Source of the DNA: Myxococcota bacterium
GTDB lineage: Bacteria; Myxococcota; B64-G9
Length of the DNA stretch: 64,000 bases
Direction of reading: 5' to 3'
Assembly (NCBI GenBank): GCA_022710975.1
Contig: JAKLGA010000001.1
Span: forward strand, 372,001 to 436,000
The first letter of the stretch is position 1. Each line of letters begins with the position of its first letter. The notes under the pieces are model-generated. The model was given only the letters and a program-made list of their open reading frames with translations, searched no databases and was not told where the DNA came from. Below, one piece after another: positions 7,191-15,908 of the stretch. A program made the position numbers and the translations under genes.

Positions 7191-7220
7191 TTGACCCGGC
7201 CCGCGGACACACGCTATGGT
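7191..7220 (+). promoter_or_regulatory. Promoter of the ECF sigma operon
   Basis: TTGACC (7191-7196), an 18 bp spacer and TATGGT (7215-7220) match housekeeping -35/-10 boxes. The ATG inside the -10 at 7216 therefore cannot be the start codon, which supports initiation at 7249. Confidence 0.55.
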
Positions 7221-7248
7221 GGCTTGCCCACGCGAGAAGGGATCGGAC

Positions 7249-7872
7249 ATGCCAGAGGACAAGCCCGTCGAGAGCAACCCCGCGACCTGGGTGGCGGACC
7301 ACGGGGATGCGCTGTTCCGCTTCGCGCTGCTGCGCCTGCGGGACGCCGCCCTGGCCGAGGAGGCGGTGCAGGACACCTTCCTGGCGGCCCTCAGGGCGCG
7401 CGAGCGGTTCTCCGGCCTGTCCACGGAGCGCACCTGGCTGGTGGGCATCCTCAAGCACAAGATCGTGGATCTGATCCGCAAGCAGAGCCGGGAGAAGCCG
7501 CCCGCGGACCCCGAGGCCCTCGAGCGCATCGGGGAGCAGAGCTTCGACGGGGAGGGGCGCTGGAAGAACGGCCAGCCCGACTGGCAGGTGGACCCCTCCA
7601 TGGCGCAGGAGCGCAGCGAGTTCCGCGAGGTCCTGACCGAGTGCCTGGAGGAGCTCCCCCCGCGCCAGGGCGAGGCGTTCGCCATGCGCGAGCTGGATGA
7701 CCTGACCAGCGAAGAGATTTGTAAGGCCATGGGAATCACCGAGACGAACCTCTGGGTCATGTTGCACCGCGCCAGGTTGCGCCTGCGCGGCTGCATCCAG
7801 GCCAACTGGAGCGAGGGCGGGGCCGAGGGCGGCGCCGGCTCCGGTGGCGAGGGCCCAGAGGACGCCGGATGA
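7249..7872 (+). CDS. ECF-type RNA polymerase sigma factor
   Basis: 207 residues. Region sigma-2 is visible at about residues 18-60 (DALFRFALLRLRD, AEEAVQDTFLAALR), with the core-binding DTFLAAL stretch, and region sigma-4 at about 125-185 (LPPRQGEAFAMRE, TSEEICKAMGITETNL, LHRARLRLR) with its helix-turn-helix. The linker is long and Gly/Trp-containing. The start at 7249 lies 28 bases after a good -10 box. The stop overlaps the start of the zinc-binding gene 7869-8123 (ATGA), so the two are translationally coupled, the standard sigma/anti-sigma arrangement. The promoter is housekeeping-like rather than an obvious ECF autoregulatory one. The target genes and inducing stress are unknown. Confidence 0.9.
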   Translation: MPEDKPVESNPATWVADHGDALFRFALLRLRDAALAEEAVQDTFLAALRARERFSGLSTERTWLVGILKHKIVDLIRKQSREKPPADPEALERIGEQSFDGEGRWKNGQPDWQVDPSMAQERSEFREVLTECLEELPPRQGEAFAMRELDDLTSEEICKAMGITETNLWVMLHRARLRLRGCIQANWSEGGAEGGAGSGGEGPEDAG

Positions 7873-8123
7873 TCACCTGCCTGCAGGCGAGCGCGCTCAT
7901 CTCCAGATCGTTCGACGTCCAGCTCGGCGGCGAGGAGTCCCGCCTGGTCGAGCAGCACACACGGGCTTGCCCGGCCTGCCTGCGGTACGCGCGCGAGCTC
8001 GAGCTCATCCGGCGTTGCTGCCGCGAGCTGGTCGAGGAGGCCCTCGGCGAGGGCGGCGCGCCGCTGCCCGAGGGGAGCCGGCGCCGGCTGCAGGCCCGGC
8101 TGGAGCTGGCCCTGCAGGGCTGA
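7869..8123 (+). CDS. Soluble zinc-finger anti-sigma factor
   Basis: 84 residues. It shows the anti-sigma zinc motif: Cys4, then His30, Cys34 and Cys37 in the H-x3-C-x2-C form (HTRACPAC). Proteins with this pattern (zf-HC2/ZAS) bind and hold the cognate ECF sigma factor in the cytoplasm. Unlike many relatives it is not followed by a membrane segment, so it probably senses an internal redox or metal signal rather than an envelope signal; this is inference. The ATG overlaps the sigma-factor stop codon (ATGA). Only five bases separate it from the end of the convergent gene 8129-9283. Confidence 0.85.
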   Translation: MITCLQASALISRSFDVQLGGEESRLVEQHTRACPACLRYARELELIRRCCRELVEEALGEGGAPLPEGSRRRLQARLELALQG

Positions 8124-9443: not shown

Positions 9444-9818
9444 ATGGCGCGCAAGGTCCTGTTGGTGGACGACAGTGTGGCCATCGCCCGGCAGCTGACC
9501 AAGCTGCTGACCGACCTGGGGGACTACGAGGTGGTGGCGCACGCCAAGAACGGGGCCGAGGCGGTCAAGCTCTTCAAGACCGTGGCGCCCGACGTGGTGC
9601 TGATGGACATCGTCATGCCGATGATGGATGGCATCCAGTCGCTGCGCACCCTGCTGCGCCTGGATCCCGCCGCGCGGGTGGTGATGGTGTCCTCGCTGGG
9701 AGGGGTGGGCGCCAAGGTCGAGGAGGCCATCCGGCTCGGGGCGCGGGCGGTGATCTCCAAGCCCTTCGAATCCGATCGCATCCGGGCCGTCCTGGACGGC
9801 CTGTTCGCCCAGGAGTGA
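9444..9818 (+). CDS. CheY-like single-domain response regulator
   Basis: 124 residues, a single receiver domain. The acidic pair Asp9-Asp10 (LLVDDS), the phospho-acceptor Asp55 (VLMDIVMP), the Ser/Thr switch (VMVSSLGG) and Lys (VISKPF) are all present, so it should be phosphorylated and act by protein contact, as there is no output domain. GGGAGG precedes the ATG. It is followed eight bases after its stop by the MshEN-CheX fusion gene, so that phosphatase-like protein is its likely partner. No histidine kinase gene is in the window. Confidence 0.92.
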   Translation: MARKVLLVDDSVAIARQLTKLLTDLGDYEVVAHAKNGAEAVKLFKTVAPDVVLMDIVMPMMDGIQSLRTLLRLDPAARVVMVSSLGGVGAKVEEAIRLGARAVISKPFESDRIRAVLDGLFAQE

Positions 9819-9826
9819 GCGCGGTC

Positions 9827-10702
9827 ATGGGCATCCAGTTCTTCGGCGAGTTCCTGCTGGATCGCTGGGTGATCACCCGGGGACAGCTGCTCGAGGCGCT
9901 CGAGCTGCAGGAGTACCGGAACCTCAAGTTCGGGGTGCTGGCCGTGCAGAAGGGCTTCCTGCGCGCGGACCAGGTGGAGGCGATCAACGACTTCCAGCGA
10001 GGCACCGATCGGCGCTTCGGCGATCTGGCCCTGGAGAAGGGCTGGATGAACCCGGAGCAGGTGCGCGAGATCATCACCCTGCAGAAGAACAACTACCTGT
10101 ATCTGGGCGAGGCGCTGCTGGAGCTCGGCCACCTCACCGAGGACGTGCTCGAGCGGGAGCTGGCCATCTTCAAGGAGGAGCAGTCGCGCTACAACCTGGA
10201 GGCGGTGCCGGTGCCCCCGGGGGTGCCGGTGGCCGGGCTGATCGCGGCCTGTGTCGATCTCACCCGCAAGCTGATGCTGCGGGTGGCCGGGATGCTGGCC
10301 AAGACCGGCGAGCCCGCGCTGGTCGCGCCGGGCGCGCCCGATGTCTCGCGCGAGCTCGAGTTCCACCTGACCATCGCGGTGCCGCTGGGCGCGCGGCCCG
10401 CGGTGCGCTACGTGCTCAGCGTCTCCAGCGACGTGGCCGTGACCATCGCCACCCGCATCCTCAAGGAAGACGCCACCCGGGAGTCCGAGGAGGTGGTGGA
10501 GGACGCGGTGCGGGAGTTCTGCAACATCGTGTGCGGCAACGCGGTGGCCAAGATGTCCCAGCAGGGCATGGAGGTCGAGCTCGGGCCGCCGGAGTCGCTG
10601 GAGGGCATCCCGGAGCTCGGCGCCGGCATGTCGGCCGTGTCCTATCCACTCAAGGTCTCGGGAGGCGAGGCGGACCTGCGTTTCGTGATCCTGCCCGCCT
10701 GA
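9827..10702 (+). CDS. Four MshEN-type motifs fused to a CheX/CheC-like phosphatase domain
   Basis: 291 residues. Residues 5-115 contain four copies of a 24-residue motif starting at residues 5, 34, 63 and 92, an exact 29-residue period. Each copy has Gly at its third position; three of four have Gly at the tenth (Trp in the first); the seventeenth position is Leu/Val in all four, and the last residue is Gln in the first three copies. This is the known form of the cyclic-di-GMP-binding MshEN motif (24 residues, five-residue spacer), here as two tandem pairs. Residues about 140-291 look like a CheX phosphatase, with the ExxN catalytic pair at Glu230 and Asn233 (REFCNIVCGNA). It directly follows a CheY-like gene. 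Inference: a phosphatase for that regulator, gated by cyclic-di-GMP. Ligand binding is not shown by sequence alone. Confidence 0.8.
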   Translation: MGIQFFGEFLLDRWVITRGQLLEALELQEYRNLKFGVLAVQKGFLRADQVEAINDFQRGTDRRFGDLALEKGWMNPEQVREIITLQKNNYLYLGEALLELGHLTEDVLERELAIFKEEQSRYNLEAVPVPPGVPVAGLIAACVDLTRKLMLRVAGMLAKTGEPALVAPGAPDVSRELEFHLTIAVPLGARPAVRYVLSVSSDVAVTIATRILKEDATRESEEVVEDAVREFCNIVCGNAVAKMSQQGMEVELGPPESLEGIPELGAGMSAVSYPLKVSGGEADLRFVILPA

Positions 10703-10736: not shown

Positions 10737-11015
10737 ATGAAGCAGTACGCGCTGGCGACGTTCGGGATCTGGGAGCTGCTGATCATCCTGGCCATCGTCC
10801 TGGTCATCTTCGGCGCAGGCAAGCTGCCGCAGATCGGCGAGGCCTTCGGCAAGGCCATCCGCAACTTCAAGCGCTCGTTCAAGGAAGAGGCGCACGAGGT
10901 GCCCGCCGACGCCAAGCGGCTGGAGGAGGGTGAGCGGACCGAGCCCCTGCCGCCCGGCCGGTCGGGGACCTCCGCCGAAGAGGAGCGCGCCAAGTCCTCC
11001 GTCGAGCGCGGCTAG
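10737..11015 (+). CDS. tatA: Twin-arginine translocase subunit TatA
   Basis: 92 residues: an N-terminal membrane helix (IWELLIILAIVLVIF), the TatA hinge FGAGKLP, an amphipathic helix (GEAFGKAIRNFKRSF) and a charged tail. The Phe-Gly hinge is typical of TatA. TatA forms the pore through which folded proteins with a twin-arginine signal cross the inner membrane. It is 27 bases upstream of tatB and 34 bases downstream of the CheX-like gene, so it may be on the same transcript as the chemosensory pair. No tatC is in the window. Confidence 0.9.
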   Translation: MKQYALATFGIWELLIILAIVLVIFGAGKLPQIGEAFGKAIRNFKRSFKEEAHEVPADAKRLEEGERTEPLPPGRSGTSAEEERAKSSVERG

Positions 11016-11042
11016 GCGAGGACCCCCCGCCCGCGGACCGCC

Positions 11043-11423
11043 ATGTTCGGCATCGGTACCTGGGAGCTGCTGATCATCCTGGTGCTGGCCCTGGTCATCC
11101 TGGGGCCGCAGAAGCTGCCTGAGCTCGCGCGCCAGGTGGGCAAGACGGTCCAGAAGCTCCGGCGGACGGCCGACGAGGTGCGCCGGGAGATCGACATCGA
11201 CGGCGTGCGCTCCGAGCTGTTGGGGGATCCCGAGCTCAAGAAGCTCGAGCAGGAGCTGGATGTGCGCGGTGAGATCCGCAAGGCGATGGGTCAGCTCCAG
11301 GACCCGCCCCCGCTGCCCGGCCCCGGGAGCGGGCCGGGCGGCTCCGCCCCGCCCGCGCCCGTGGCCGGCCCCGGCTCCGACCCGCCGGCTGGGTTGCCTC
11401 CGGGAGGCGGCCCTGCCGGCTGA
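11043..11423 (+). CDS. tatB: Twin-arginine translocase subunit TatB (TatA/B family)
   Basis: 126 residues. The start MFGIGTWELLIILVLALVIL carries the conserved Glu in the membrane helix and the hinge is LGPQKLP; the Gly-Pro hinge and longer body favour TatB, the subunit that receives substrate with TatC. The amphipathic helix (ELARQVGKTVQKLRR) is followed by a charged coiled region and a 40-residue Pro/Gly tail. The last bases overlap the proposed start of the barrel gene 11413-12795, so translation of the two is probably coupled. Confidence 0.85.
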   Translation: MFGIGTWELLIILVLALVILGPQKLPELARQVGKTVQKLRRTADEVRREIDIDGVRSELLGDPELKKLEQELDVRGEIRKAMGQLQDPPPLPGPGSGPGGSAPPAPVAGPGSDPPAGLPPGGGPAG

Positions 11424-14187: not shown

Positions 14188-14216
14188 TTGCCGGGCCAGG
14201 CGGCCTGTGCTACGTT
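14188..14216 (+). promoter_or_regulatory. Promoter of pilT
   Basis: TTGCCG (14188-14193), 17 bp, TACGTT (14211-14216), beginning five bases after the lipoprotein stop. The leader has GGGAGG seven bases before the pilT ATG. Confidence 0.55.
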
Positions 14217-14244
14217 GCCAGGCGTACAGCCGGGAGGATCCCAA

Positions 14245-15429
14245 ATGGAGCTCAACGACATCCTCAAGGTCGCCATGAAGGCAGGGGCGTCCGACATCCA
14301 CCTCAAGGCGGGCCTGCCGCCCATGTTCCGCATCAACGGCGATCTGGTGCCGCTCAAGGACGAGCGCCGCCTGCCCCCCGAGGAGATCGGGCGCATGGCC
14401 TTCGGCATCATGAACAACTACCAGAAGGAGCGCTTCAAGGAGTTCAACGAGCTCGATCTCGCCTACGGCGTGCCCGGCCTGGGGCGCTTCCGCGTGAACG
14501 TCTTCCAGCAGCGCGGCACGATCGGCATCGTCTTCCGCGTCATCCCCTTCAAGATCAACTCCATCGAGGAGCTGCTGCTGCCCAAGGTGCTGGAGAAGAT
14601 CGCCATGGAGGAGCGCGGGCTCATCCTGGTGACCGGCACGACCGGCTCGGGCAAGTCCACCACGCTGGCGGCCATGGTCGATCACATCAACACGCACGAG
14701 ACCTGCCACGTGATGACCATCGAGGATCCCATCGAGTTCCTCATCCGCGACAAGCGCAGCATCATCAACCAGCGCGAGGTGGGCGTCGATACCATGTCCT
14801 TCGCCCAGGCCCTGAAGAGCGCGCTGCGCCAGGACCCGGACGTGATCCTGGTGGGCGAGATGCGCGATCTCGAGACCATCGAGACCGCGCTGCTGGCCGC
14901 CGAGACCGGCCACCTGGTCATGAGCACGCTGCACACCCTGGACGCCACGGAGACCATCAACCGCATCATCTCGGTCTTCCCGCCCTACCAGCAGAAGCAG
15001 GTGCGCATGCAGCTCGGGGCGGTGCTCAAGGCCATCGTCAGCCAGCGCCTGCTGCCCCGCTCGGACGTCAAGGGCCGGGTGGCCGCCCTGGAGATCCTCA
15101 TCGCCACGGCCCGCGTGCGCGAGCTGATCGAGGACAAGGATCGCACCAAGGAGATCCCCGACGCCATCGCCCAGGGCCACATCGCCTACGGCATGCAGAC
15201 CTTCGACCAGGCCCTGATGGGCCTGCTGAAGCGCAACCTGATCTCCTACGAGGAGGCCCTGCGGGCCTGCTCCAACCCGGACGACTTCGCGCTGCGCGTC
15301 TCCGGCATCTCGGCCACCTCGGACGCCACCTGGGACCAGTTCGAGAGCCAGGCCGGCGGCCAGCCGCAGCAACCCGCGCCCGAGAAGCCGCCCACCGGGG
15401 GCGGAGACATCCCCATCGACCGGTTCTGA
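14245..15429 (+). CDS. pilT: Type IV pilus retraction ATPase PilT
   Basis: 394 residues. The start is set by GGGAGG and by the typical N-terminus MELNDILKVAMKAGASDIHL. Motifs in order: PAS-like N-domain, Walker A GTTGSGKST at 131-139, Asp box (TIEDPIEFL), Walker B (DPDVILVGEMRD at about 198-209) and His box (HLVMSTLHT). This hexameric ATPase depolymerises pili and powers twitching. The C-terminus has a 35-residue Gln/Pro-rich extension. recX follows eight bases after the stop, so the two may be co-transcribed. No other type IV pilus genes are adjacent, except the separate Flp-type pilin 650 bases downstream. Confidence 0.95.
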   Translation: MELNDILKVAMKAGASDIHLKAGLPPMFRINGDLVPLKDERRLPPEEIGRMAFGIMNNYQKERFKEFNELDLAYGVPGLGRFRVNVFQQRGTIGIVFRVIPFKINSIEELLLPKVLEKIAMEERGLILVTGTTGSGKSTTLAAMVDHINTHETCHVMTIEDPIEFLIRDKRSIINQREVGVDTMSFAQALKSALRQDPDVILVGEMRDLETIETALLAAETGHLVMSTLHTLDATETINRIISVFPPYQQKQVRMQLGAVLKAIVSQRLLPRSDVKGRVAALEILIATARVRELIEDKDRTKEIPDAIAQGHIAYGMQTFDQALMGLLKRNLISYEEALRACSNPDDFALRVSGISATSDATWDQFESQAGGQPQQPAPEKPPTGGGDIPIDRF

Positions 15430-15437
15430 GCCCCGCC

Positions 15438-15908
15438 GTGCCGGGTCGCGGCTCCAGACCGCCCGCCGATGCCCACGAGGCGGCGCTGCGGCTGCTCGAC
15501 GTGCGCGAGCGCTCGCGCCGGGAGCTGGCCGGCCGCCTGCGGGAGAAGGGCTTCGAGCCCGCCCAGATCGAGCCGGAGCTCGAGCGCCTGGCCGAGGTGG
15601 GGCTGCTCGACGATCGGCGTTTCGCCTGCTTGCGCGCCCGGGCGCTCGTGCGGCGCGGTCAGGGTCCGCGGCGCATCGAGGCCGATCTGCGCGCGCGGGG
15701 GGTGTCGCGCGAGGACATCGCCGCGGCGCTCGAGCAGGCCCTCGAGGGAGAACGGCCGGCCGAGCGCATGCGGGCGCTGGTGGTGAAGCGCTTCGGCGAG
15801 GGCTGCCTGGGCGCGGAAGCCGACCCGAAGCTGCGCGCCCGGGCCCAGCGCTACCTGCTCCAGAAGGGCTTCGCGCCGGACGAGGTGCTGCCGCTCTTCG
15901 AGAGATAG
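15438..15908 (+). CDS. recX: RecX family regulator of RecA
   Basis: 156 residues from a GTG. It has the tandem three-helix repeats of RecX: LRLLDVRERSRRELAGRLRE, then LAEVGLLDDRRFACLRAR and GPRRIEADLRARGVSREDI. RecX binds RecA filaments and limits recombination. In many bacteria it lies directly after recA; here it is downstream of pilT on the opposite strand to recA, which lies 1.6 kb away with a pilin and a radical SAM gene between. No strong ribosome-binding site is seen, and it may depend on pilT translation. Confidence 0.88.
   Translation: MPGRGSRPPADAHEAALRLLDVRERSRRELAGRLREKGFEPAQIEPELERLAEVGLLDDRRFACLRARALVRRGQGPRRIEADLRARGVSREDIAAALEQALEGERPAERMRALVVKRFGEGCLGAEADPKLRARAQRYLLQKGFAPDEVLPLFER

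Follow-up and report, generated by a model that had tools for sequence, protein, structure and literature searches.

A conserved CheY and MshEN–CheX fusion gene pair as a candidate c-di-GMP-regulated phosphatase module

The two adjoining genes and their domains

Two adjoining genes lie on the forward strand of the window, the 64,000-nucleotide stretch of DNA analysed here. The first (9444..9818) encodes a 124-residue CheY-type protein matching Pfam Response_reg (88.6 bits, E 3.9e-25), a complete receiver-only single-domain response regulator whose DD/D/S/K site comprises the acidic residues D9 and D10, the phospho-acceptor Asp55 (9606-9608), S83 and K106. After a gap of 8 bp, on the same strand, follows a gene (9827..10702; ATG 9827, TGA 10702) encoding a 291-residue fusion of four MshEN-type motifs with a CheX-type phosphatase domain.

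The 24-residue motifs start at residues 5, 34, 63 and 92 of the fusion protein with an exact period of 29, leaving three 5-residue linkers. Motif 1 (residues 5-28, FFGEFLLDRWVITRGQLLEALELQ) is encoded at 9839..9910, and motif 2 (residues 34-57, with K34, G36 and Q57) at 9926..9997; motif 3 (residues 63-86, with R63, G65 and Q86) occupies 10013..10084, and motif 4 (residues 92-115), in which the aromatic F115 replaces the Gln of MshEN, 10100..10171. Across the four motifs, 38 of 44 relaxed MshEN key positions were matched, while 5000 shuffles of the fusion protein, taking the best offset of each, had a mean score of 23.8 (sd 1.4) and a maximum of 32, ruling out chance periodicity and upholding the array first read from the letters. 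By the relaxed pattern motifs 1 to 4 match 9, 10, 11 and 8 of 11 key positions, and by the strict one 8, 6, 5 and 8 of 11. The four motifs are not equivalent, since each deviates at ligand positions: motif 1 lacks the Arg (F5 there) and the turn Gly (W14 there), motif 2 has N54 at a Leu position, motif 4 carries F115, and motifs 1 to 3 all have Phe at motif position 2, a conservative change relative to MshEN as judged from the sequence.

The sequence-only reading had proposed Pfam matches to both halves of the protein as a check. For the C-terminal half these were obtained, with CheX (PF13690) at 49.9 bits against a cut-off of 27 and CheC at 28.4 against 22, but T2SSE_N gave no match to the fusion protein up to E 10. 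Relatedness to MshEN was established instead by the MshE-related NCBIfam model NF053729 (c-di-GMP_motif; 70.9 bits against a cut-off of 38), together with the structural matches to MshE and PilF given below. An AlphaFold2 model of the fusion (mean pLDDT 90, pTM 0.64) contained both an MshEN-type bundle and a CheX fold.

The CheX-type domain spans about residues 135-291 (10229..10699) and is the only CheX in the window genome. In a Foldseek comparison, the C-terminal part of the model matched Thermotoga CheX (1squ) with E 1.8e-10 and TMt 0.79, and the model also matched Borrelia CheX, which was solved as a complex with CheY. A profile match of the domain to 3hm4 (E 7e-15) placed E230 (10514-10516) and N233 (10523-10525) within the ExxN..GN segment that aligns with solved CheX proteins. 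The Thermotoga CheX equivalog model NF041094 scored 26.5, far under its cut-off of 280, so the domain is not an equivalog of the Thermotoga protein. Because the CheX fold is matched, the ExxN pair (10514..10525) is kept and a CheX–CheY complex structure is available, dephosphorylation of the adjoining CheY by this domain would be the natural reading of its sequence and model.

Conservation of the pair and of the catalytic residues

We assembled 47 homologues for motif spacing and residues, 44 full-length homologues for family scans and 35 loci from named genomes, the last including eight of the nine same-family genomes. An orthologue of the fusion occurs once per genome in 9/9 genomes of the same family, at 53-63% identity; most of the phylum lacks it or has a diverged form. 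Full-length homologues were found in three further Myxococcota families, with one genome carrying eight copies (G034, family f19; L031 and L033-L039). The 35 loci come from Myxococcota, Nitrospirota, planctomycete-type bacteria (Uabimicrobium, Brocadiia, Planctomycetota) and the candidate lineages Auribacterota and Fischerbacteria. All 44 full-length homologues matched NF053729, and 42 of them Pfam CheX. Motifs 1 to 4 together span exactly 111 residues, free of indels, in 47/47 homologues.

A CheY gene immediately precedes the fusion, in the same orientation, in 9/9 same-family genomes, in 2/2 genomes of a second family and at 32/35 loci across phyla, which excludes an accidental neighbour and substantiates the claim of a CheY-like regulator next to the fusion. 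The gaps range from -4 to 71 bp apart from a single one of 253 bp, and the DD/D/S/K site of CheY is invariant in the window and 31 loci. Two of the three remaining loci have no CheY at all; at the third (L089:3705-4001) an internal deletion in the upstream receiver joins its start to the GKPF end, reflecting either gene decay or an assembly error. Pairwise distances of CheY and fusion proteins correlated over 29 loci (r 0.92; permutation maximum 0.28), a correlation that shared descent alone could cause. The genes flanking the pair differ between phyla, so the module consists of CheY and the fusion gene alone. The CheY gene and the MshEN–CheX fusion gene thus form a real, conserved module.

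In the window, the pair is followed by two TatA/B-type genes, a protein without Pfam match, a cytochrome c7-type protein, a Big_5 protein, a PilT-type ATPase and RecX. The tandem TatA/B-type genes (10737-11423) lie downstream of the module in several same-family genomes and in none from other phyla. The PilT-type ATPase and RecX genes (14188-15908) are also neighbours near the module in L071, where a RecA-like gene comes next. A function shared with the TatA pair, PilT or RecX was rejected, because these genes recur within the same family only and not in other phyla. Upstream, at 7216-8123, an ECF-type sigma factor gene overlaps a small putative zinc-finger anti-sigma gene, whose zf-HC2 match falls just under the Pfam cut-off. 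Just upstream of the homologue in G040 (L047:1102-1500) lies a low-complexity tandem repeat reading RSSVVGHRSSVIG, and the locus contains further repeats of a similar kind.

The ExxN pair was intact in 39/44 homologues, the five exceptions all being paralogues from G034. Together with the Pfam, fold and alignment results, this conservation confirms the CheX-type domain with Glu230 and Asn233 that had been proposed from sequence. A different role for the domain has to be weighed here, in which it acts mainly as a receptor that binds CheY~P and not as an enzyme, CheY~P then controlling the MshEN region or an attached partner. The CheX/CheC superfamily does include the CheY-binding switch proteins FliM and FliY, both of which matched the fusion model in Foldseek, and the five G034 paralogues without ExxN point the same way, suggesting from their sequences a switch from enzyme to other roles. 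However, ExxN is present in 36/36 evaluable homologues outside G034, and L035, the one G034 copy that has a CheY as its neighbour, retains the pair. We therefore consider a receptor role for the CheX domain improbable at this locus.

Motif pairing and the putative ligand site

Both models of the fusion protein matched c-di-GMP-bound MshE (5htl) and PilF GSPII-B (8pfa) over 56 residues at 0.7-0.9 A with a Foldseek probability of 1.00. As Foldseek reports percentages and not the aligned residues, we assigned the bundle indirectly, by computing the identities that each of the three adjacent motif pairs would give and comparing them with the reported values. The reported identity was 27% for MshE and 26-28% for four PilF variants, values that only motifs 2+3 reproduce; for motifs 1+2 the figures would be 23% with MshE and 30-34% with PilF, and for motifs 3+4 they would be 34-39%. 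Since the identities for all five c-di-GMP-bound structures fit this central pair only, the layout suggested earlier, an MshEN domain simply doubled (1+2 and 3+4), ranks lower and is probably wrong, and the closed MshEN-type bundle of the model is probably formed by motifs 2 and 3 (residues 34-86), each supplying one half. Sequence profiles, for their part, matched motifs 3+4 to MshE better than any other pair. The Gln at the end of the motif is kept in 46/47 homologues at Gln57 and 47/47 at Gln86, in 27/47 in motif 1, and is always replaced by Phe or Tyr in motif 4, a sequence pattern that agrees with a bundle of motifs 2+3.

Whether such a bundle would bind c-di-GMP can be judged against two mutated systems. 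In MshE, binding depends most on the two Gly and the hydrophobic cluster: losing a single guanine-stacking hydrophobic residue weakens affinity by more than 10-fold, against less than about fivefold for changes of Arg or Gln (PMC5013675). In PilF GSPII-A, regained binding needed the first-position Arg and both Gln, and Gly was needed for high affinity (PMC12002112). Motifs 2+3 have a charged first residue, Gly and Gln in both halves (K34, R63, G36, G65, Q57, Q86) and so pass both lists, except at N54, which replaces the guanine-stacking Leu; most homologues have N, H, S or Q there. The complete set of Gln, Gly and first residue is found in 18/47 homologues at motifs 2+3 and in 0/47 at motifs 1+2 or 3+4, and the first residue of motif 3 varies among Pro, Arg, Gln and Met. 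At motifs 3+4, an all-hydrophobic ligand surface is kept in 37/47. From sequence and model, motifs 2+3 are preferred over motifs 3+4 as the putative c-di-GMP site. With the ligand-facing Leu replaced by Asn or His, binding of c-di-GMP by the four-motif region is plausible but uncertain; we would put it at about even, leaning somewhat in favour.

An MshEN-like domain need not bind c-di-GMP, as the relatives XpsE and PilF GSPII-A, both of which have lost binding, illustrate by analogy. The four-motif region may likewise be a degenerate MshEN serving dimerisation, localisation or partner binding, with the CheX domain unregulated or regulated by a partner. The ligand-position deviations in every motif would fit such a region, and so would the strong conservation of FFG in motif 1 (46/47, 47/47 and 45/47) and of the aromatic residue in motif 4, which suggests a role away from an MshE-type site. 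What speaks against degeneration is that Gln57 and Gln86, ligand contacts in MshEN without evident structural need, are near-invariant, that the ligand-contacting Gly are kept in 40-47 of 47 homologues, and that the protein scores well over the curated c-di-GMP_motif cut-off. We hold loss of binding to be a serious possibility, somewhat less likely than regulation by c-di-GMP.

The region might also bind another cyclic dinucleotide or nucleotide, with Asn or His at position 54 shifting its specificity. The guanine-stacking Leu of MshEN has a conserved polar counterpart here, and MshEN can bind cGAMP weakly according to a figure legend in the MshE paper (PMC5013675). On the other hand, GGDEF proteins were present in every module-bearing genome tested. 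The window genome, of about 7.1 Mb, has 24 MshEN-type, 23 GGDEF and 9 CheW matches; GGDEF proteins occur in 23/23 other module-bearing genomes tested and CheW proteins in 24/24, both being common and only weakly diagnostic. We regard a ligand other than c-di-GMP as unlikely.

Proposed mechanism and relation to known systems

The reading we prefer, from sequence and model, is that CheY and the fusion protein act as one signalling module in which a CheY~P phosphatase is regulated by c-di-GMP, a proposal whose chance of being right we place just short of even. A chemosensory or other histidine kinase would phosphorylate the stand-alone CheY on Asp55, and the CheX domain would dephosphorylate this partner through E230 and N233. 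The N-terminal four-motif helical region would be a sensor derived from MshEN, in which motifs 2 and 3 form an MshEN-type four-helix bundle most likely binding one c-di-GMP. Binding would then alter the CheX domain, through its orientation or its dimer, and thereby change the lifetime of CheY~P. The phosphatase activity, with CheY as its probable substrate, we infer from knowledge of the family; binding of c-di-GMP, gating by it and a site at motifs 2+3 are more weakly inferred.

Since the sensor-like region is related to a known c-di-GMP receptor, the fusion may link two bacterial signalling languages. More broadly, and with more reserve, we suggest a widespread two-gene module in which c-di-GMP bound at the central motif pair might directly control how actively a CheX-type phosphatase works on the partner CheY. 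If true, c-di-GMP would thereby be tied directly to an aspartyl-phosphate phosphatase of chemosensory signalling. The routes by which c-di-GMP is known to meet chemosensory phosphorylation are mainly PilZ proteins, CheY-like effectors of c-di-GMP and kinases, CckA among them. A conserved pair of CheY and sensor–CheX, found in several phyla and as one copy per genome in its own family, would offer a simple, self-contained route from a second messenger to the lifetime of a response regulator. The fusion is also a natural continuous array of MshEN motifs, in which sequence does not readily tell which motifs pair, nor therefore by what rule ligand sites could be predicted, and the module is small, two proteins that are tractable in vitro.

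The sequence-only reading had taken the arrangement to be undescribed. This does not hold for the domain combination, because Wang et al. 2016 name CheX, together with REC, HD-GYP, CheA, cyclases and kinases, among the domains with which MshEN occurs and also mention a tandem (MshEN_N)2; in the text of that paper, the MshEN–CheX combination takes one sentence with no function tested, and neither a CheY neighbour nor a four-motif array is mentioned (PMC5013675). Among the papers covered by our literature search, none studied MshEN–CheX experimentally. The conserved CheY partner, the four-motif array free of indels across phyla and the probable bundle of the central pair do appear to be new; the module is a novel variation on known parts and does not amount to a new kind of system.

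MshE of Vibrio cholerae (5HTL; NF053729) shares with the fusion the 24-residue motif, the 5-residue linker, the conserved Gly and the two Gln, and its bundle superposes on the model at 0.8-0.9 A over 56 residues. Unlike MshE, the fusion has an unbroken four-motif array with no match to a T2SSE_N-type C-terminal subdomain, Phe at motif position 2, N54 and F115, and its predicted closed bundle consists of motifs 2+3. PilF GSPII-C of Thermus thermophilus (6f8l) also strings more than two motifs together without a break, and the fusion gave a profile match to PilF residues 303-384, but PilF is a traffic ATPase and not a phosphatase, with three motifs against four. CheX of Thermotoga maritima (1squ, 1xko) and the CheX–CheY complex of Borrelia burgdorferi (3hzh) share the fold (TMt 0.65-0.80) and ExxN, whereas these CheY~P phosphatases consist of a single domain and lack a sensor region. 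In CckA of Caulobacter, c-di-GMP binding switches on dephosphorylation in a phosphorelay (PMC4853435), but CckA is a bifunctional histidine kinase with a PAS-B receptor, unrelated to CheX-type phosphatases. A Myxococcaceae protein of about 500 residues (L056:403-1884, reverse strand) carries two ordinary MshEN units, apparently followed by a receiver and a nucleotide-cyclase-type domain; the spacer between the two units is longer than in the CheX family.
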